DNA of 64,000 nucleotides, from positions 251,914 through 315,913 of the forward strand of contig BCJJ01000014.1 in NCBI GenBank assembly GCA_039545355.1, in the 5' to 3' direction. Under the pieces are notes generated by a model. The model saw only the letters and a program-made list of their open reading frames with translations. It ran no database searches and was not told the origin of the DNA. The stretch is from Trichosporon coremiiforme (taxonomy: Eukaryota > Basidiomycota > Tremellomycetes > Trichosporonales > Trichosporonaceae). Both the position numbers and the translations under genes were made by a program. This document shows, piece by piece, positions 16,401 through 29,100 of this stretch (within the stretch, counting starts at the first letter, position 1; every line of letters begins with the position of its first letter).

Positions 16401-18240
16401 GCAACGGTATTGGCCATGGGCGAAAATACCGAACATTGAGTTGTCTCTCCCAAGGCATGCCCGGATCTTGGCCACGAGCTCATGACGCTCGACGGGGCTC
16501 GACGGGTGCGAGCGCGAGCTGGCCACCCCGACTACCCATCGGGGCTGCTCATCTCCCCGCGGAGCTCTGCGACGTGCATTACTCCGCACCACTCGCAAAC
16601 GGCGTCAAGGTACGATCTACGTCTGACAGTCCGTCGACATCGGAGTGTCTGCAGAGCATCTCGGAGTGTCTCCCCTCCACGGCCTCCACTTCAGATCCCA
16701 GCATTGCTGTTCCGTAACCCGTGAGCCTTCCGTCGACGCGGTCTGGAACGCACCCAACGGCTCCCCGAAACGCCTGCCGTCTCCCCGAACGCCATCACAT
16801 ACGACTGGTCGTCTTCCCCCGCGCACCCCGCGGGCGTGACGGGCTCCGCTGGCGTCGCTGATCCGTTCGCACCGTTCGACGCCCCCGTTGACAGTCTGCG
16901 AGTGCTGGTTCGCTGCTGCGCTCGGTGGGTTCAGTCTTCGGCGGATTGCGTCGAATCATCTGATTTCCCGACAAATCGGGCGCCGCGCTGCCTCTCCACC
17001 TAAGCAAACGCGCGTTCAAGGCACGGTTGAATCTCGTCAAAATCGGACGGTCAGGCACGCACACTGCAGATGCGCTGCGTCACGTGAAAGGGTTCACTTG
17101 CAGCTGTGTTGCCGGCCGATAACGTTCGGACTACGCTGTTGTGGACTGGATGCATCGCCGAGAAGCCGAGTGCAAGTTACAGGAAGGGGAGTGAAAACGC
17201 AGCTACATGCCTGTCGGGTTGCCCGAGAGGACGGAAGTGTCGCTCCGCGATGGTGCCAGCGAGCTCCAACAGACAGGCGACACTGCGCCTCGTTCGTCAG
17301 ACGGAACGTTGAGCTCCGCAAAACACATGCTCCCTACGTTATGCACAAGACCAGTTAGCAGGCACAGCGCACACCCTGTCTTAGTCGCTCGGCCGGGCAC
17401 GCGCCCCCCACTCTAGGTAGCCCTTGCAAGCGGAAGGCGTGAGGCACAGTCCCGAGCTCACAGCTCGAAAAGGACTGGAAGGAGAAGGCGCGAGAACCCC
17501 AGATGCCCCCATCACGGGGGTTGTTCGAGGGATCTACGGGTGACTAACTTCTTTCTGGGGCGGGGCGAGATTCTGGCAATTCTTTCGAGGCATGTGAGAC
17601 ATGTTGTGCGGGACCCGGTGCGGACATGCGGGCATGCGGGCTACTACGGCCACCAAATTCCGAGGGTAATTGCCACTTCGTCACCGCTTTACACTTTTCA
17701 CTCATCGTACATGACTGTCGGCCCGAACGGTCCGTTGACTACAACTTCTTGAGTCGATGTCGCCGTGGAGTTTGAATAGACCATCAAAATGGGCCGCACG
17801 GCCGGGCCGCCACCTCCGCTTCTTCTCCGCAAGCTGTGCTCCTTCATTAAACTTAACGCCCCCGGACAAGCCTCTGACGCATTAACACACTCTTCTGCGT
17901 ATCATTACCAGCAGCCGTGACCAAGATCTCGTTGGTATCTTTAGCACCATCGCCTGCGCGTCGTCGAAAGCGATGCACTCGGCGCCCAGCACAGCGAGCG
18001 CAGCTACCGGAGAAGACCGATGCAGACTAGCGTTTGAGCCATGCGAGGCTCACGCACCCACCTTACGTCACCGCTCTTGGACCGCTAGCAGCACTAATGC
18101 CAGTGTGGCAGCGCCGATCCAACTCCCCTCGGTCATCGGATCGGCCATCGCTGCCTTATAACATCCACTCCGCTTCCCACTCACGACTTCTTCACTCACT
18201 CTATTCACATCCTCTACACCCAGACAACCTCCTACACATC
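13446..18240. other. Long intergenic region, no supportable gene
   Basis: About 4.8 kb between the divergent PYC and CYSTM genes. A TTATAA at 13713-13718 could serve PYC, and 13.9-14.6 kb is pyrimidine-rich on the minus strand. Many short frames exist on both strands but none has family features or a consistent splice model. A weak coding-like patch near 16780-17000 is discussed under rejected items. Confidence 0.45.
13713..13718 (-). promoter_or_regulatory. Possible TATA element for PYC
   Basis: TTATAA, about 270 bases upstream of the PYC ATG at 13445. It is within the distance expected for a fungal promoter with a leader, but it is a short motif and could be chance. Confidence 0.3.
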
Positions 18241-18542
18241 ATGAGCCAGCAAATGTACCAGGCCAGTGATGGGAAGTGGTATCCCGTCTCGTCGATGCCC
18301 CAGGACTATGGTGGTGGTGGCGGCTACGGCGGCGGCGGCGGCGGTTACGGCCAGCCCCAGATGCAGTATGGCCAGCAACAGCCCATCTACGTCCAACAGG
18401 GCCGTCCCGGCGGCGGAGGCGCTGGTGCTGCAGCGGGTGGCGCGGGATGTCTCGGTAAGCTAACAGTTCTTGTCGCAGCTAACATTCAGCGGCGCTCTGT
18501 GGTGCTCTCCTCTGTTTCGACCTCGGAGCCTGTCTCTTCTAA
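18241..18542 (+). CDS. CYSTM-type small Gly/Gln/Tyr-rich protein, copy 1
   Basis: join(18241..18454, 18490..18542), 88 residues. The N-terminal part starts MSQQMYQASDGKWYPVSSMP and is followed by Gly/Tyr/Gln low-complexity repeats. The second exon encodes a short Cys-rich hydrophobic tail (ALCGALLCFDLGACLF). This is the layout of CYSTM proteins: a disordered Q/G/Y head and a C-terminal cysteine-rich transmembrane module, linked in yeasts and plants to stress tolerance at the plasma membrane. The 35-nt intron has a CTAAC branch point before ATTCAG. A TTATAA lies about 85 bases upstream. A near-identical paralog follows at 19017, with the intron at the same place, so the pair arose by tandem duplication. 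Confidence 0.85.
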
Positions 18543-19016
18543 GCGCTCCACCGCGGATTCCTCTCCCTCTGGTTCGTTTTCGGCATCGTCTTCGCATATA
18601 CAGTGAGTGCATCCTTCCAAGCATCCTTCGCGCCTGCTTTCGAGGGCACAGGATGCGATCGACCGACGCCTGGTGTGCTAACTGATTCCCAGCATCTTGA
18701 ACATCACTCGACATGACCTCACCGCATACGCATTCCGACCCTTCTATTTTTATCCCACGCTCTCCCGCCCAGCCTTTCCACCGAGTGCCTCGAACGATCG
18801 ATGGCCAGACTGTCACGTGATATACAATGTGCGGGATTAAAATGACCTCCACGCCACCACGTGGCAAATGTCTTGGCGCCTGTCTTGACATTAAATTGCC
18901 ACCCACGCATAGCCTGGCCCACCCCCATCTCGTCCCCATTCGCAACACTCGACATCTTTTCTCAACTCTAATACTCTCTCCTCTTCACCGACCACCGACC
19001 GCACACAACAACAGCC
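18543..19016. promoter_or_regulatory. Promoter region of CYSTM copy 2 with two CACGTG boxes
   Basis: The 474 bases between the two CYSTM genes contain two CACGTG palindromes (18814-18819 and 18858-18863), the binding site of bHLH regulators. They lie about 200 and 160 bases upstream of the ATG of copy 2. No gene lies between the copies. Confidence 0.4.
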
Positions 19017-19426
19017 ATGTCGCAGCAGCAGATGTACCAGGCCTCAGACGGAAAGTGGTATCCCGTCTCGTCGATGCCCCAAGGCGCTCAGCAGGGCTAC
19101 GGCGGTGGTTACGGCCAGCCTGGCGGCGGCTACGGCCAGCAGGGCATGCAGTACGGCCAGCAGCAGCAGCCCATCTACGTTCAGCAGGGCCACAGCGGTG
19201 GCGGCGGCGGTGCGGGAGCTGGAGGTGCCGGATGTCTCGGTGAGTAGCGAGCGATGATCGGAGCGAGGGCAGCGTCCTCGTTACTTCTGGGCAGAGCACA
19301 GCTCGACCGGGAGCGACGTCGCCTGTGCCCTCTGCTCTAGCTGGTACATGTTTGCGATCCTGCTAACATGCAGCGGCATTCTGCGGTGCTCTCCTCTGTT
19401 TCAACCTCGGCGCGTGTCTGTTCTAA
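19017..19426 (+). CDS. CYSTM-type small Gly/Gln/Tyr-rich protein, copy 2
   Basis: join(19017..19239, 19374..19426), 91 residues. It has the same head as copy 1 (MSQQQMYQASDGKWYPVSS), a Gly/Tyr/Gln-rich middle and the Cys-rich hydrophobic tail AFCGALLCFNLGACLF. The intron sits at the same codon as in copy 1 but is 134 nt instead of 35, so introns and flanks have diverged while both protein ends are conserved. It is probably tail-anchored in a membrane with the Q/G/Y head in the cytosol (family knowledge). Two CACGTG boxes upstream are absent from the near upstream region of copy 1, which may mean different regulation. Confidence 0.85.
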
Positions 19427-20661
19427 GCAAGCCCTCGCCGTCATCGGTCGCTCGCACCAACATAGATTCCTCCCTCCATTGTCTCTTCGCTTCTATCTTT
19501 AATGACTTTCGCTCCGAAAGGGTTGTACACGGAATCGTCGGAATGCACTGATTTCCTTTCTTGGCCCCTGGTGCTGCTGCTGACTTCCTCACTGACGAGC
19601 TGACGGACGGGATAACGGCAAGCAAGCAAGACCGGGACCGATACAGCTCGGCAAGCTCGGATGTCTTGGACGGGTCTTGGGGACCCCGGCGCCCGTCATC
19701 CCAGGCAGAGCGGGGCCAAGCTGACGTCAGTGCCGACAATCATCTGCGCCCCTTCACAACTCCGGCCGGCGGCGCAGTCTCCTCCATCGCCGAGACGACC
19801 TGCAAAACATGCGGCCGCCGAGTGTCTTTGCTCCTTGGGATGGGTGGGATGGGGCATAGGCAGTGGTGGAACCTTTGGACGACTGCGCGGCCCAACCTCG
19901 AACTTTTTGGTACCCTTTGCACTGCCTCATACCTCAGCGCCAAGGTCTTCGGTCCTCGTCTGTGCACGGTGCGCGGGCTGACCTCTTCTCGACTTTTGCA
20001 TTCCGTTTCCAGTGGTCTGGGCCTGATCAGACACCGTTCCGGCTGAGTGCAAGCGAGCAAGAGGCACAGAGGTTGCTTGACTGCGCATTCTGGGTGGAGT
20101 GTCATCAGACATACTGACGAAATGTGGCGCTTGCTGGATTCCCACACACTGAAGAGTCTGTCTCACTCTTCCTATTAATAGGCCGTCAGAGGCACTTGGG
20201 ACCTCGTATGCTGGGCTCGAGCTGGGATCTTGAGATGTTATCATGTGCACTGGCTGGGGTGGAGGTGACGGGGTCACTGCAGGTGTTGCGAGGTGGAATG
20301 CTCACACCCCTCTAAGAGGGATCAAGCATACTTGAGGTTCGCTACCGTCGAGGACTCGCAGCACAGGATAGCCGTCTCGGCATCCGCTGCTGGACTTCAC
20401 GAGAGCTTGTTGGACTGTTACGCAAGAGACTGCGAAACGCTTGATCGTCGCCGATCGACACTTCTCCGCTATTGAACAGGCCAAGCGCCCGCTCCCGTCA
20501 CCGATCGCCGTGCGCCTGCTTCCGCCGATGGTCTCTTTCGAAACTATCCACGTTGACTCCTCTTACCGACTGACTCGAGATGCACCACTTGCCTCCCACT
20601 CACTCTCGGTGCCTCACTTTGCTGAGGATGTTCTCAAACTATGGGCAGAGTGCCTTTCTTT
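19427..20661. other. Intergenic or 5' region of the intron array
   Basis: No separate gene supported. It lies between CYSTM copy 2 and the array that begins at about 20662. The last part (from about 20440) is an open plus-strand frame without an ATG start, and could be an early exon or leader of the array transcript. Confidence 0.35.
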
Positions 20662-23600
20662 GCGAGCTGTAGACCACGCGGAAGCAGCTGATGGCAGTCA
20701 CCCCAGGCCCCGCCGGCGAGCAGTAGCAGGGAATGCATCTCTGGCAAGCTCGGGACTGTTTGTCGCTTGGGAGCTGACGACAGAATTGCACCTCTGCCAG
20801 CGGCGTCTGATCCTGTGCTTTGCTGTTCAACTCGGATCGCGAGATGTAGAATGCGCAGAGAGGCACATTTTCTGGTGGACCGTGAGCAAGCTGTCCAGAC
20901 GAATGTGAGCTGACAACAGAAAAGCCGAACGGCACACTTAGCCTCACTTCTCGTTTAAGATGAGCTAGAAATCGGGATTCGACAGCTGACCATGGCCAGG
21001 CAGTTGTCTCTCGGTGAACGTTCTCTGCTGAGTGAGCTGTGACTTCCTGTTTCGAGCTGACTTCAGATGTAGAGAATCTACTGTACACGGGGGCAGCCCT
21101 TCAGTGTCACTTCCCGTAAGCAGACTTCTCTGTGGCTCTGAAGCTGACTGAGCAGTACGGGAAGGGAGGCGCTCCTGCCAGCCTCGTCTGCTTGGTAAGC
21201 TATCTCTCGAAGGCTAGCTGATACCAAGGATCAGTGGCGCACCGTTCACCACTGTCAGGAAAAGTGAGCTTTATTGCGTCGGTAGAGACATAGCTGACAA
21301 TCCGCAAGAGGCGGTCGATGGGTCGCTGAGGGTCGCTTCTGCCTTGTGAGCTAGTAAATCAAGTAAATCAACAGCCAGCTGACTTCAGCTTAGGGGGCTT
21401 CAGGACCTTCGCAACAGCTGGCCAGCACCAGCACCGGCGAACTACGGTAAGCTAAAGAACTAGTGTCCTGAGCTGACGAGGGGCAGAGACAACTTCGAGC
21501 GCTGCAGCGGGTATACACCTCGTGAGCTCCTGCTTCCTCGAATGAAGCTGACTTCAGCTCGAAGCATAGATATGCGCAATGTCCTCTAGAGTGTCAGAGA
21601 CAGTGAGCTTAATGGACTGTGAAGCCAAGCTGACAACAGGGAGCTCTCGAGGGCGCTCATCGGGCTCCATCGCATTGTGAGCTATCGCCTCCCTGGCCGA
21701 GCTGACATCAAACTTCGAATGATGAACTCTTTAGCTCGCTAGCACGAATGACAGTGAAGCTGATTCCAGGTCTTCGAGCCGACAATGGGCAGAGGCTGTG
21801 AGAGAGCTTCTGAGACCCCCTAACGCCTACAGCAGTCAGCTGAAACTGGAGACTCTGTAAGCTGACCGCAGACTTGAGGTGGAAGCTCGCCCGTCTCGTT
21901 AGGGTGAGAGGCGGCAAGCCAAGCTGTCCGCGAAAGCTGACTGGGGCCAGCAAGCTGAGAGTGCTGCGGTGCAACTCTGCTGTGTGGTGAGCTTTCTCAG
22001 TCTCTGGCCAAGCTGACTTCAGATATCCGATGGCTGGCCGTACCCTAAGCAACTCTGATGACACTCAGGTCGTTGGCAGCTGACCATGGGCAGGAGGCTG
22101 CTATTGCAGGAGCACGACAGCAGTGCACTCATGCCGGCAGTATCAGTGAGTCAAACGACCTGGGGACGAAGCTGAACAACAGGCAGGAAGCTTAGAACAC
22201 TGCTTCAGCTCTTTTTGACCAGTGAGCTGAGATGCCCCCTTCCTTACCAGCTGACTTCAGATCTGCGATGTCCCCAGTTGGAGCCTTAGCTGTGCCGAGA
22301 TGGTGAGCTGGAAGCATACTTCTGTAGCTGACAACAGGCAAGAAGCCACCAAAGCCCGTGGCGAATGCTCTATCCAGTGAGCTGATCCGCTCCTCTTGAC
22401 CAAGCCAACCTCAGACGTAACAAAGTCGTCGCTATCGTCTCACAAGCTTGGCTCCCGTGAGCTTGAACACGGGTTCTGTTGAGCTGACATCAGGAGGAAG
22501 CAAAGCGACAGCGCTACGGCGGGGTCCCGATACGCCGTAAGCTGCAGCACACTGGACCAAGCTGACTTCAGCTTGCCACTGACGATTAATAAGAGCGCTC
22601 AGTACAAGGGACAGTGAGCTAACGCCTCCTGAGTTTACGAAGCTGACAGAGTGCAAAAAGCAGTGTCTCGCGCCTCGGCCGTCCGTCCGTGAGCTCTTTG
22701 GCTCCAGGCGTGTGGACATCGTTACAACCAGCCCACCCGTGGAGAAACAGTGAGCTTTCCCTCCCTTTTTGTGAAGCTGACAGAGCGCAGGATAGTTGCC
22801 TAAGTGTTCTGTAAGCTACTCCATCTCCAAGCCAAGCTGACTTCAGACGAACGAAAGGGGGCTGTGGCGAACAGCCCATCAGAGCTAGAGAGCAGTGAGC
22901 TATTGTCTGCTTGGCGCGAAGCTGACAACGGGCAAGAAAGACGTTGAGGGGCCGCAGTATTCTGTAAGCTCATAGACTGTTGAGCTCAGCTGACTGCAGA
23001 TGCAAGCTGCAGAGGACACCGTCACGGTCAGCCAACCTTTACTAGAGACAGTGAGCTATGGGCCACTTTCGCTGTATGAAGCTGACATGTCCAGAAAGCT
23101 GTGTCTCCTTGACCGTCTGCGACCTCTTCCTCCTCTCTACCAAGCTCACATCAGACGTAAAGATCACCGTCATAAGTTCGCCAGTCTCACAAGCGGTGAG
23201 CTGGGGATCCACTGGCACAGCTGACTCTGTGCAGGAAGCTGTGCGAAGTCCGTCGGCCGTCCGTGAGCTCTTTAACTATTCTTGCCAGCCAGCTCACAGA
23301 CGCAAAGGTCGCCGTCTGAAGCAGCCGGTCACTGTCAGAGATGGTGAGCTGTGTCGCCCGAGCGGAAGCTGACAAGGGCAGGATCCACTGAGGTGCCGCA
23401 TTTGTACTCTGTCGCCGTGTCGCCGTGAGCTGGCAAACTGGGCACGGCGAGCTGATCCCAGCTGCCAAGGCGTGACAGCCAGCCCCTCGTATCTGACAAA
23501 AAGCTGGAGTTTGTCTCCTCATCGCTTCGTGAGACACAGATGAGCCTCCCGGAGCAGTCATTTTTGCAACTTGGCCATGTCATCGCCACCGGATCGGGAG

Positions 23601-23858
23601 GTAAGCTGTACAGCCTTGCGTCACGAGCTTACTTCCAGCGCTTTCGCCCCCTTACCCATTGACGAACCGACAATGAAGTGGTAAGCTACTGTACGATTCA
23701 CCGTCAGCAGCTGATCTCAGAGAGCTTCCGAGCAACCTCATGCGCACCGCGCCACATGGACTATGCCGTCCTGAGTAGCTTGTCTTGCACATGCTCGGTG
23801 AGCGTAGCGACTCCACTCACTCCGCCGAGGTCAGTTGTTGAGCATAGCTGACACTCAG
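20662..23858 (+). repeat. Tandem array of mini-intron/mini-exon units
   Basis: Some 35-40 intron-like units in about 3.2 kb, all on the plus strand. Each begins GTGAGCT or GTAAGCT (about 29 exact copies by my count), ends AGCTGAC plus 3-8 bases plus AG, and measures about 36-40 nt. The exon-like spacers are about 37-48 nt. Donor spacing is 74-84 bp over long runs (for example 22222, 22303, 22377, 22457, 22537, 22614, 22689). Two alternating classes give a dimer of about 155 bp: acceptors CTGACTTCAG are followed by exons starting ACGnAAAG-like and ending GAGACA, and acceptors CTGACAACAG are followed by exons starting GCAGGAAGC-like. Intron interiors are not alike; only the ends are kept. The same signals and size occur in real introns nearby, for example in RFC4 (42329-42365). 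Decayed units, including two GC-AG donors, occur at the left edge. The last exon-like stretch is longer (23462-23600), and three more introns follow from 23601. It may be a protein-coding gene with tiny exons or a non-coding transcript. Confidence 0.8.
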
Positions 23859-23964
23859 CTTAGATCCGATCCCCGGTTCCAGACGCGTGGCAGGTGTTAG
23901 ATATGCACATTAATGATCGCATTCTTATTCTCTATCCGACTTAGATGTCACACGCCCGCTGCGC

Positions 23965-25544
23965 TTACTGCTGCGAGAGCAGGCCCTGGGGAGGCGCGAG
24001 GAGAGGCTCGCCCTCGGCTGTGACGTAGCAGCCCGAGAGACCGCCGTCGACCATGAAGTCGGAGCCGTTGACGTAGGACGAGTCGTCCGAGGCGACTGGG
24101 CGTTAGCTTGATGCGTCCGGCGGTTTTAGCTGCGTGAGCAGAGCAACTCTGGGCGTGGGGAGTCGGCCTCAGCCCGGATATCCGGACCGCGCAGCGCGTA
24201 TCCGCAAAGCCTCGGCAGCCGGTAAGGATGCACGTTCCCTCGACGCTCGCTGCGATCGCGTGCTCGTTTGTACTCACGGAAAACAACAGCCTTGGCCTGC
24301 TCGACGGCCTCGCCGAAGCGGCCCATGGGGCAGTGGACCATGCGGCGGTTGAGCTTCTCGGGGGTGTTGAGGAAGTCCATGAGGAGGGGGGTGCGGATGG
24401 GGCCGGGGCAGAGCGAGTTGAAGCGGATGCCCTCACGCGCGTGGATCATGGCGAGCTCGCGGGTCATGGCGAGGACAGCACCCTTGGAGGCGGTGTAGGC
24501 CAGCTGGGGGGTGGCGGCGCCGAGCTTGGCGACGAAGGAGGCGACGTTGATGACCGAACCGCCGCGGTGGAGACCCTTCTCGGGCTCCTCCTTGTTCTGG
24601 CTGTTAGCTGAGATGGAGGAGGAGGAAGCTGAAAGGAGGCTGGGCTCACGTTACGCATGGCAGTCACGGCGTACTTGCAGCCGTACCAGACACCCTTGAC
24701 GTTGATAGCCTGGGTCAGGTCCCAGATCTTCTCGTCGGTGTTGACGGCGTCGTCGTCGCTGGGGTTAGCTCGGTCACCGATGTGATAAGCTTGCCAGCGC
24801 CTGTGCGCCGCGCTCTACTCACTTGGGGTGCATGATACCTGCGTTGTTGAACTGTTTGTCAGCTTATCTCTTCGCTGCCCCAGCTGTCACCAGGAGTCTG
24901 TCCTCTGAGACACTGGGCACGAGGCGACCGTCGATCCACACGCGCACAGACATAGCATCGCGCGTCGCCCTCGCTGCACCAAACCGTTCCTCGTATCCCC
25001 AAGAAACGTATAGTGACTTCCCAGTGTCCGAGCACGTAGCAGCGACCGTGTCAATGACTCACCATGACATCGAGGCGGCCGAAGGTCTCGACGGCCTTGT
25101 CGACGAGGGCCTTGACGTCCGCCTCCTTGGAGACGTCGCACTTGACGGCAACGGCCTCAGACGAGGGGAAACGAGTCTTGACCTGCTCAGCGGCCTTCTG
25201 GACGGCCTCGGCGTTGACGTCCGAAAGAACGACCTTGGCACCCTCGGCGGCGAACTGGAGCGAGGTCTCGAGACCGATGCCGCTGGATGTTAGCTATCGC
25301 GTTACGCCCACGTAGCTGATAGTGGATGTATGCTGAGGGATCAAGCCATATCAGGTCAGCCGATGGTTAGCCCACACTGAGCCAACGCTCCAGCACACTG
25401 GTGCTGTTGCTCGTCACCGTCGGCGTCGTCACCGCTGTACCGAGGAAAAAGTTCGGGATCCCTGAAACGGGGAAGACAAACTCACGATCCGGCGCCGGTG
25501 ACGATGGCGACCTTGTTCTGGAGACGGAGACGGGGAGTGGCCAT
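23965..25544 (-). CDS. Short-chain dehydrogenase/reductase (SDR)
   Basis: complement(join(23965..24095, 24278..24596, 24650..24758, 24823..24851, 25063..25282, 25486..25544)), 288 residues, with all phases consistent. NAD(P)-dependent oxidoreductase of the classical SDR type. The start is MATPRLRLQNKVAIVTGAG and the Rossmann glycine motif TGAGSGIG is at residues 15-22. NNAG is at 95-98. The catalytic Ser is near 159, with Tyr173 and Lys177 in YTASK. The C-terminus reads SDFMVDGGLSGCY, the usual SDR end motif. Five introns of 53-210 nt include one next to a 29-nt exon. Substrate cannot be told from sequence; the family covers alcohols, polyols and ketoacyl compounds. It is convergent with the intron array, whose last intron ends about 100 bases away. 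Confidence 0.93.
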
Positions 25545-26169
25545 TGTGATCGGATTGTGTTGAACAACGGGGGTGAGGGGGATAAGTCAGGAATGAAGAC
25601 AATGCTGACGAGGCTGGAGGATATACAAATTGGGAGGTGGGGGCTGGGTCATACCCTCCGTACCTCCACCTGCAATCGGCAACGTCGGCATGTCAACAAA
25701 AGTGGCCATGACCGGCCAGCTGGCCAGGGCTGCCCTGGAGAGATCAGGCAGATGACCCGAGCTACGGTGGGCTACGGTGGAATGCACGGCCCTGGATCTT
25801 TCTGAGTCAGATTCATGCTATAAGCAGCCTGCGCATCAGCACAGCGCACCTAAGCGATAGCCGCTCCTCCGCCCATTCGTCCCCTGCAGCCCTTGCAAGC
25901 CCTTGCCCGCCCGACCATAACCGCTGTCCGGGCCTGATTCCGGGGTACCAGCCCAGCGTGTACCTGAATAACCCGACGAGATCCTCAACCCTCACAGCCA
26001 GCGGCCATCCATCCACATATCCGTCTTCAAGCGGTCACTCAGCCCCTCCTACCCTCGGCCGTCCCCGACAACAGTGCACCGACAAGCTGGTCCATCGTGC
26101 ATACTCTACATGTTACACTGCTGCATCCTTATGCTTATGTACATTTTACTAGTTTGTACACTGTCCGAA
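25545..26169. other. Intergenic, no gene seen
   Basis: About 625 bases between the SDR start and the 3' end of the KDM3-like gene. No gene or RNA seen. Confidence 0.5.
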
Positions 26170-29100
26170 TCACTCGTCCATGTCTCCCATCCCCTTGCCC
26201 ATATCGCTCTGGATCACCTTCATGGCCAATCCCATCATCAGGTCGTTGCCGGCAACAGCCTGAGAGATTCGCGCTCGCTGAGGGGCGGGAGGTGGAGTCG
26301 GCGCACGCTTCTTCTCCTCCTCGGCCGGCACAGGCATCGGCTCGCGCTCGATTGCAGCGTCCATCAGCCGGTCCACAAGTGTCTGCTTCAGCTCACTACG
26401 AGTCGGGCCAGTCGGGGCAGGCTCCGGCTCTTTGCTCGGCGACTTGGTCGATGTCGGCGTCTCGTCGCGCACAGAGCTCGTGGCCGCGCCGAAACGGGGC
26501 GTCACGTTACCGCTCTCCCAGCGTGCATACTGGGCCGTGCGCTCAGCCTCCCTCGCCCTGAGGGCCGCCGCCTCGTCCTTGCGTCTCTGGCGTGTTTCCC
26601 GCACGTTCGTCCACGCGTACCACAGGACGTTGTACAGCTGAAGGACGTCGTCCTTCCATGCCCGCACAAAGTTCTCCTGGCGGAAGTCCTGGCCGAGTCG
26701 CTGACACCGGCGAACGTTGTCTGGCTGTTAGCTATCGATCGAGCGTACGTTAGCTTACGAGGTGAGACAAAGTCAAGGGCAATCTTGATACAGTTGGCGA
26801 GGTTGCACACCTGGTGCGCGCACCCCGCAGGAATGAAGACGGCATCGCCAGGGTATTGGTATACGCGGAACGACTTGACGCCGTATTTCTCGAAGAGTTC
26901 CGTCCGAAGTGCCGAATCGAGGTAAAACATCTGCGCATGGATCGGGTCCTGGTACTTGTACTGAGTCTTGTCAAACTTTTCCATCAGGAACTGGCGGATT
27001 TTGTCGGCGTCCTCGGCGCGGAACAGGTCCCACACCGCACATCCCGGCTTGCCGTCCGGCCCTGGGGACGCGTGCAGGAGGATGTTGATAGCATCAGCGA
27101 CATCCATGTGGAGTCGCGTGGAGCCCATGCCGCCGGGGTCTTCAAGGGCAGCGAAGGCGTTGTACATCTTGGCTCCAATGTCAGGACGAGTGGCACCAGC
27201 AGGGAACTGGAGTCAGCTAGGGGTGGGCCTCTGGTAGCTTACATGAGAATAGAGGTTTAGGACACCATTGCGACGCGTGTAGTCCGGAACGGGAAGAGCG
27301 TTCGAGAAGTCGTGGTACATGTCAGGGTAGTTGGTCTCGAAGTCACCTTCGATGGGCCAGTCCTTCAGCTTGAGGATCTTCATTGGCTTTGCCTTCCTCT
27401 TGCGCACCTTCTTCTCGGGCTGAGAGGCTTCCTCTGTAACTGACGGTTGCTCGGACGGAGCCTGCGGATCCCTGACCGGCGATCGAGCGGTACCCGGTGA
27501 CGACGGACTCTCCGCCTCACCAGCCGGCTGATCCTTCCCATTGGCAAGGTTCTCATCGGCCACGGCGTCTGGCTGAGGAGAGGTAGTCTTCGGTGCGTCG
27601 CCATTAGAGACCTTGCTCTTATCGGCAACATCGCCGTCAGCAGAAGCACCATTCACTACCTTCTCTCCTGGCTCAGCTGTGGTAGTCAAAGACTTGTCCT
27701 TCATCGCCACATCGGCGTTCGCCTCTGGAACCGCCTCGGACGCAGCGGCTTCCCGCTCAGCCTCCCGCTTGTCCTTCAGGTATTGATTGAGGAAGGTTCG
27801 CACGTTGTCCGGAGGTTTGACTGGATCGCCTTTCTTTGGTCGCGGCTGCTCGTCCTCGTCTTCCTCTTCGTCATCTAACTCTATGGTTTCGAACTGCGTC
27901 GGCACGGTCTCCTCGCCGCCCAGGACCTTGAAGAGAGTGAAGAATGAGCGAATGGAGGCACCATAGAACTGTTCATCCTGGCAATCCAGCACCCCTGATG
28001 TCAGCTCAGCGAACGGAATTGGAGAACTCACAGCAACCGTCCTGGCCGTAGCGATCAATGAACATGTCGGGAGTCCATGAGCCCCGAAACCGCTTCCTCG
28101 TGCCGTACGCCACGATTGGCTCTCCACGTGCCCAGAGGTTGTCGAAAGTCTCGTTGTCCAGCTTATCGGCGTCGATGTACATGAATGGGTGAGTCTCCAG
28201 GCCGGCCGGGTCTTTCTGTGACGGAGCAGACTTGGACGCCTCGTACAGCTCAGCGAGCTGCTCGTCCGTGACGTGAGTTTCCTTCGGGTCCGGCGACGGC
28301 TGATCCTCGAACCATTCACGAACTGCCTTCTCCAACTCCTCATCACCGCCCAGCGTCAACGCCTTGATGGTGTCCTCCACATCAGCTCCGGGCTGAAGCA
28401 CGAAGTCCATCAGCGCCTTCCACTGCTCCTTCAGCTCATCGCCGCGGAATCGCGACGCGGGCTGCAGGTCACAGCGGGCGTGCTGGAAGTTGGTCTTCGA
28501 TACTCGTCGCCCAGGTGCCGGAAGCTCCAACGGCAGCGTGTCGTCGCCTCCTCTGCTGCACTTGTGCAGTCGAGGTTTGGCGGCGTCCGGTAACGGCCAG
28601 GGCGATGTGAGAAGATTATCGGTCGTGTCGCTCATATACCGCTCGCATTGGAGACAGTAGTCACGTCCGCATTTTCGACAAAAGAAGTAGCCTCCGAAGA
28701 TCGTTGAAGCACAGAAATCGCACAGAGCGCGGTGCTCGGCGGCGTCTGTCCCTCGGTAGATTGCCTTGTTCTTCACGATATGCCTCAGTTCCTGGCTGAT
28801 AGGGTGCAGTAGAACTGGCGCAACCGTTCGCTGACGTCAGCTGAAAGCACGACAAGACAAGCTCACCTCTGTTCTCTTCATGTGCTCCTCAATGAGCATT
28901 GTGTTGAAGTTGGTCGGCATAGGCTTGACGGGATCCGGATACTCAATGTCCTCGAAGTGCCCAGGTTTCAGGATTTTGCCTGTCTGCGGATCGATACTGC
29001 GGTCAGTCAACGCTTCTTGCCGCGCAACTCACTCGAAGACTCTTGTGAGGCGGAATCGACACGAATCGCCTCCCAGCTTGGCCACACACTGCACGCACTT

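Follow-up and report, generated by a model that had tools for sequence, protein, structure and literature searches.

Splice signals and repeat architecture of the array

We analysed a 64,000-nucleotide (nt) stretch of the Trichosporon coremiiforme genome (contig C14, positions 251914-315913), referred to throughout as the window, and searched the genome as a whole (42.0 Mb in 134 contigs). At positions 20662-23858 of the window lies a dense array of predicted mini-introns on the + strand. Its downstream neighbour is a short-chain dehydrogenase encoded on the opposite strand, and a diverged copy of the region, its homeolog, is present on contig C3. A preliminary description of this DNA had depicted the array as a nearly regular succession of about 29 exact splice donors and had offered three explanations for it, namely a protein gene of tiny exons, a heavily spliced noncoding RNA, and a locus whose product is its introns.

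Motif counts were compared with those in 300 dinucleotide shuffles of 20662-23858. The + strand carries exactly 29 GTRAGCT donors (shuffle mean 1.05, maximum 5), matching the earlier estimate, together with 28 AGCTGAC branch sites (mean 0.83, maximum 4), 20 donor-branch pairs (mean 0.01, maximum 1), and 19 complete donor-branch-AG units (mean 0.01, maximum 1). The minus strand carries three donors, one branch site, and neither pairs nor complete units.

Introns were then called with a splice-signal weight model and non-overlapping segmentation. The model places 38 introns in the array at a score of at least 9, 36 at 15 or above, 34 at 18 or above, and 28 at 22 or above, so that the dense mini-intron pattern is confirmed both by the complete units and by the model. 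The median intron is 38 nt, the median exon 42 nt, and the median donor spacing 81 nt; introns scoring at least 15 make up 43% of the span. At a score of at least 18 the array has 9.86 introns per kb, whereas three scans of the flanks give 0.05, 0.20, and 0.42 and the opposite strand of the array gives 0.87. The consensus is also followed more strictly in the array than by intron-like matches elsewhere in the window, for both the donor heptamer (18 of 23 versus 8 of 24) and the branch heptamer (20 of 23 versus 10 of 24). The array is nevertheless partly decayed, since 7 of its 38 donors are not GTNAG, four of these being GC. The same weight model places eight introns in the JmjC (KDM3-like) gene of the window, and the array signals share order, spacing, and length with introns modelled in genes of this genome, which partly supports the earlier reading of the units as introns. 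The predicted features are listed below; all introns are calls of the weight model, compared by alignment where the homeolog is mentioned.

20662..23858, + strand: full extent of the mini-intron array, with 38 introns called (34 at a score of at least 18), from motif counts and the weight model
20961..23461, + strand: stretch matched by the profile of a 157-bp two-intron unit (nhmmer dimer model)
20662..20697, +: intron 1, GC donor
20744..20783, +: intron 2, GC donor; aligns with a GC-donor intron of the homeolog
20882..20919, +: intron 3; aligned intron in the homeolog
20960..20999, +: intron 4, donor AT; the homeolog has GT there
21032..21066, +: intron 5, strong; aligned strong intron in the homeolog
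21116..21155, +: intron 6; aligned intron in the homeolog
21195..21228, +: intron 7
21264..21308, +: intron 8
21346..21388, +: intron 9
21447..21486, +: intron 10
21522..21557, +: intron 11
21603..21639, +: intron 12
21730..21769, +: intron 13, decayed donor
21835..21871, +: intron 14, GTCAGCT donor
21914..21950, +: intron 15, GC donor
21987..22022, +: intron 16
22045..22093, +: intron 17, decayed donor
22146..22182, +: intron 18
22222..22260, +: intron 19
22303..22337, +: intron 20
22377..22414, +: intron 21
22457..22493, +: intron 22
22537..22571, +: intron 23
22614..22651, +: intron 24, acceptor uncertain
22689..22731, +: intron 25, weak branch
22750..22790, +: intron 26
22811..22846, +: intron 27
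22895..22936, +: intron 28
22964..22999, +: intron 29
23051..23094, +: intron 30
23119..23154, +: intron 31, decayed donor
23196..23234, +: intron 32
23263..23307, +: intron 33, branch AGCTCAC, acceptor uncertain
23344..23381, +: intron 34
23425..23461, +: intron 35
23601..23638, +: intron 36
23681..23720, +: intron 37
23830..23858, +: intron 38, short, GTCAGTT donor
20171..20182, no strand: CCTATTAATAGG palindrome, kept in the homeolog (homeolog comparison); candidate promoter element

The array is a degenerate tandem repeat with a dimeric unit of ~157 bp that consists of an A exon, an intron, a B exon, and a second intron. The exons alternate in two types and do not form a single simple unit. 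Among ten A and ten B exons, picked by hand with decayed units omitted, mean similarity z scores are 1.28 for A-A, 0.93 for B-B, and 0.26 for A-B comparisons. The intron interiors share little (34 interiors, 561 pairs; mean pairwise z 0.26, standard error 0.05) and display no A/B alternation, with z at 0.20 for the same parity and 0.31 for the other. Nine dimers were used to build an nhmmer profile, which covers most of the array and has matches there outside the seed units. It gives three matches above threshold in the homeolog, at 57.3, 23.6, and 21.2 bits, and it also matches unrelated arrays at up to 29.8 bits (L024) because it contains the splice motifs; only the 57.3-bit match thus stands clear. 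Tandem Repeats Finder reported no array at 20662-23858, probably because the units have diverged too far. In the pooled exons of such arrays, the most enriched words are fragments of intron signals.

With regard to RNA features, six windows of the predicted spliced RNA show no notable structure (z from -1.8 to 0.7), and the array introns fold no better than versions with shuffled interiors. The GTRAGCT and AGCTGAC heptamers are nearly complementary, and in predicted folds they pair at four or more positions in 23 of 38 introns. The window contains no Rfam match at the gathering cut-off, and a scan of 20 loci, with L037-L039 outside it, yielded only three tRNAs.

Homeologous copy, related loci, and surroundings

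The flanks of the window array match contig C3 (locus L017) at 73% identity over 17048-20023 and 82% over 23900-28986, and the upstream flank at 19401-20300 aligns with the homeolog at an identity of 0.75. At the corresponding place, and on the same strand, the homeolog carries a shorter array of ~1.1 kb. As a control for its alignment to the window array, we used 70 pieces from other arrays and from the window array's own later part. The start of the window array aligns with the homeolog at a score of 288, while the control pieces reach at most 164. Exon identity in this alignment is 0.63, as against control-piece means of 0.58-0.60. Five of the six window introns within the alignment have an aligned intron in the homeolog, with scores of 11.9 to 26.5; a seventh fell outside the alignment.

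In 1,122 bp, the homeolog holds 10 introns at a score of at least 15 and five at 22 or above. We compared this with a simulation, which assumes one neutral rate, in which the window array was mutated to a set identity (60 pieces each). At identities of 0.75, 0.70, and 0.63, none of the 60 pieces keeps five introns at a score of at least 18. The introns of the homeolog thus exceed what neutral decay at an identity of 0.75 or less leaves, which, on the assumption of one neutral rate, argues for selection on the splice signals.

A DNA search of the genome with the array returned only the array itself and missed the diverged homeolog too, so that it excludes only close copies. A genome-wide search for a double-intron pattern gave 187 matches having 25-55 nt between a branch site and the next donor and 127 having 3-24 nt, as compared with none for the reversed-pattern controls of either class. 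Among the matches listed there are 196 distinct places, at least 90 clusters, and at least 23 clusters with three or more. Nineteen further loci (L018-L036) were taken from these matches, and seven of them (L018, L019, L020, L022, L023, L024, and L030) have 25-43 introns in a dense cluster. In a second scan of four loci, two (L037 and L038) likewise have at least 25. The genome therefore contains at least 10 loci, the window included, with at least 25 introns in 2-4.4 kb, and the window array is not unique in it. The other fetched loci have fewer introns or are ambiguous. Exons are often shorter than 30 nt in some sister arrays, and in L024 (C9:34108-34195) two predicted introns abut, with AG followed directly by GTGAGCT and no exon between them.

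At a blastn threshold of 1e-6, no mutual match was found among the compared array loci save for the coding pair L025 (C1:983k) and L026 (C3:2213k). The two loci are homeologs of one protein gene made up of numerous small exons, whose lengths are divisible by three in 9 of 11 and 8 of 8 cases, respectively, and frame 0 is free of stops; the pair served as a coding control. The arrays on C12 and C6 (L037 and L038 versus L021 and L039) are homeologous, with flanks that are 84-87% identical, and although the arrays themselves are mostly unaligned by blastn, they are intron-dense on both copies. Judging from its ends, the ~17 kb between two outward-pointing arrays (C12:426.5-443k versus C6:457.7-474.7k) is apparently inverted, and the inversion breakpoints appear to lie within or beside the arrays. 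Diverged duplicate regions (73-87% identity) occur in the genome, as a yeast genome of hybrid or duplicated make-up would be expected to show; natural hybrids are named in PMC12820176.

An upstream coding segment lies on the same strand in 10 of the 11 intron clusters that have one called (8 independent clusters after merging homeologs, with L025/L026 left out), the exception being L027, which has seven introns and is gene-like. A converging downstream segment is present at 9 of the 12 array loci that have one called. No coding segment upstream of the window array, or of its homeolog, reached the threshold. Seven of 10 neighbouring segments have Pfam matches (thiolase, kinase, NIPA transporter, transcription factor, amine oxidase, GST, and polo-type kinase), and no function is common to those matched. 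Between the array and short upstream open reading frames (ORFs) of the window lies a gap of ~1.4 kb that contains the CCTATTAATAGG palindrome, which we take to resemble a MEF2/Rlm1 site and which was not found in the other fetched loci. At 18200-19250, two short ORFs lie in tandem on the + strand and begin almost identically (MSQQ-MYQASDGKWYPVSSMPQ), a local duplication that has cross-matches in the homeolog as well; neither ORF has a Pfam match. In the genome, Piwi, RdRP, and Dicer domains are matched above cut-off, and there is one match to ARS2.

Reading of the array and its alternatives

We favour the reading that 20662-23858, with its 34-38 predicted mini-introns in tandem, is apparently noncoding, is likely transcribed from the + strand, and would serve to bring many spliceosomes to a single nascent RNA, the sequence of the exons being likely irrelevant. 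We give this reading a rough probability of 0.4. On the best reading of the sequence, the main conserved feature of the locus is its intron grammar, and we infer that the array RNA is made and spliced. As to mechanism, introns packed between ~42-nt exons would leave neighbouring spliceosomes too little room, so that part of the array RNA would remain spliceosome-bound. The bound splicing factors would recruit RNA-processing and RNA-interference (RNAi) factors and would quieten or insulate the interval that separates converging genes. The splice signals would be under purifying selection as exons and intron interiors drift. In fission yeast, there are noncoding RNAs whose introns are required for heterochromatin, for repression, or for small RNAs (PMC5322907, PMC7229227, PMC11696164). 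It is possible, though tentative, that such arrays form a new class of locus in which selection keeps only the splice-site grammar and in which spliceosome occupancy is the output, marking or silencing the chromatin between converging genes.

Several observations weigh against the favoured reading. The array sites match the consensus well, whereas it is inefficiently spliced transcripts that feed RNAi in Cryptococcus (PMC5851062), so that stalling would have to arise from crowding; the very short exons and the 7 of 38 donors that are not GTNAG would, for their part, suit inefficient splicing. Milder simulated decay keeps as many introns as the homeolog has, in 16 of 60 pieces at an identity of 0.85 and in 2 of 60 at 0.80. 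Splice-site identity to the homeolog, at 0.85, is only modestly above that of the control pieces (locus means 0.71-0.80, with 4 of 70 pieces reaching 0.85), which is high because the alignment anchors on the motifs; this control weakens the case for better conservation of splice sites than of exons between the homeologs. The remaining adverse points concern coding potential. In local frame 1, stops number 5 in 401 codons, versus 16 in 416 and 9 in 392 in the other frames (17, 9, and 15 in the three antisense frames), and the frame-1 codon score of -153 lies 3.9 standard deviations (sd) above its shuffle mean (-277, sd 32). The best-frame codon score of the array (-47 bits) is likewise above its shuffle null (-118), antisense scoring -53. 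Fifteen of 31 curated exons of the window array have lengths divisible by three. An open chain of 37 introns is matched by 1 of 80 shuffles, and for each of the sister arrays L019, L032, and L036 all 25 shuffles did worse. A pseudo-stop control, in which 45 composition-matched sets of stop-like triplets are applied to the unshuffled sequence, is weak, with coding genes ranking 1-11 and 2-9; in it, the open chain of the array ranks 3 of 45, as compared with 11, 3, and 1 for the coding controls. Sister arrays rank both high (L018 and L019, at 2 and 3) and low (L024, L030, and L033, at 33, 44, and 32) in this control.

These coding signals would suit a protein gene of tiny, fast-evolving exons, of the micro-exon gene type, which we nevertheless consider unlikely. 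The exon shuffles are lenient, because shuffling also destroys alternative splice sites, and the best open chain requires odd splice choices and a 2-nt exon. In the pseudo-stop control, the fewest-stops rank of the array is 13 of 45, against 2, 4, and 9 for the coding controls. The best-frame score falls far below those of two pieces of the JmjC gene (+76, null -70; +89, null -46), and exon identity to the homeolog is close to that of unrelated pieces, whereas the gene-bearing flank on the right is 82% identical. Pooled exon lengths ignore phase (81, 94, and 97 for the three remainders modulo 3, from 272 exons of 8-90 nt in 13 array regions), so that multiples of three, the trait of micro-exon genes, account for 81 of 272. 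A published deficit of stop codons in long intergenic noncoding RNAs is reportedly connected with shared, splicing-related binding factors (PMC7086181). In our judgment the array is probably noncoding; the chance that this is mistaken is about one in seven. A tiny-exon protein gene, as entertained in the preliminary description, is not supported, though it keeps a small probability, and of the three options offered there, a heavily spliced noncoding RNA fits best.

Such an RNA could also be, extreme though it is, a spliced long noncoding RNA of the ordinary kind. Its introns would then do no more than raise RNA accumulation, no silencing would be involved, and the RNA or its transcription would matter otherwise. 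The structural evidence fits this explanation as well as it fits the favoured reading, and Cryptococcus offers precedents, both for introns that modulate transcript level cumulatively (PMC3744415) and for introns in noncoding transcripts (1,434 in miscRNAs, with 765 of 1,197 miscRNAs spliced; PMC3990503). However, 34-38 introns in 3.2 kb are far above the ~2 per spliced miscRNA, and intron-dependent stability would not obviously require dozens, which leaves this explanation somewhat unlikely in our judgment. An intron-packed, very long 3' untranslated region (UTR) of an upstream same-strand gene, acting through nonsense-mediated decay or read-through control, would account for the same-strand upstream segments in 10 of 11 clusters, the sole exception being the gene-like L027, and introns in 3' UTRs are known in Cryptococcus (1,025; PMC3990503). 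We regard it as improbable, given that neither the window array nor its homeolog has an upstream coding segment over threshold and that the ~1.4-kb gap to the upstream ORFs contains a palindrome conserved in the homeolog. Non-functional decay of a tandem repeat, with intron signals as neutral leftovers of an ancestral intron-bearing unit, is very improbable. It agrees with the degeneracy of the repeat, the seven donors that are not GTNAG, and the different intron numbers of the homeologs (38 versus about 10), but across units the splice signals are retained and the exons and intron interiors are close to random, simulated decay at an identity of 0.75 or less does not leave the introns of the homeolog, and dense arrays recur at loci with no mutual blastn similarity. 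Least probable of all is that the excised introns are themselves the product, for instance as a spliceosome sponge: intron signals are indeed the main recurring element of the array loci, but the interiors share little and fold no better than shuffled ones.

Comparison with known systems

Should spliceosome loading turn out to be its function, the array would pass from a variant of spliced noncoding RNA to a new class. In the arrays, what is mainly conserved appears to be the intron signals, both over the ten loci examined and on the two homeologs of two regions, an extreme natural example. They pose the question of whether spliceosome loading could be a noncoding RNA function in its own right, and whether it feeds RNA interference. 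They also carry a warning for annotation, as such arrays could be miscalled as false multi-exon genes. At the level of titles and abstract openings, with most subscription papers outside the search, no description of such mini-intron arrays was found in the literature.

Schistosome micro-exon genes have many tiny exons, as the array does, but the coding signal of the array is weak at best and its exon lengths are not consistently multiples of three. Host genes of small nucleolar RNAs (snoRNAs) combine noncoding exons with many introns; the array introns of ~38 nt hold no snoRNA, and there is no Rfam match at the curated cut-off. Introner elements would be expected to yield near-identical introns, which the array interiors are not (561 pairs, mean z 0.26).

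Closer parallels come from fungal noncoding RNAs. The fission yeast cenH/dg/dh transcripts and the targets of Pir2-ARS2 (PMC11696164, PMC7229227, PMC5322907) resemble the array in being noncoding transcripts of one strand, as predicted here, and in their introns, their repeats, and the presence of RNAi genes. Unlike the cryptic-intron RNAs of fission yeast, as described in those sources, the array has dozens of consensus-matching introns, exons of ~42 nt, and dispersed intergenic loci. In Cryptococcus, the transcripts targeted by SCANR (PMC5851062) are alike in bearing introns, again as predicted for the array, and in belonging to an RNAi-competent fungus that is presumably related, but they are typically transposon-related and poorly spliced, whereas the array sites are strong. 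According to that 2018 review, the introns of noncoding transcripts in Cryptococcus had been studied neither for function nor for splicing or conservation. The miscRNAs of C. neoformans (PMC3990503) are noncoding and spliced, as we predict for the array RNA, but they have ~2 introns each (1,434 in 765), as compared with the 34-38 predicted in the array.

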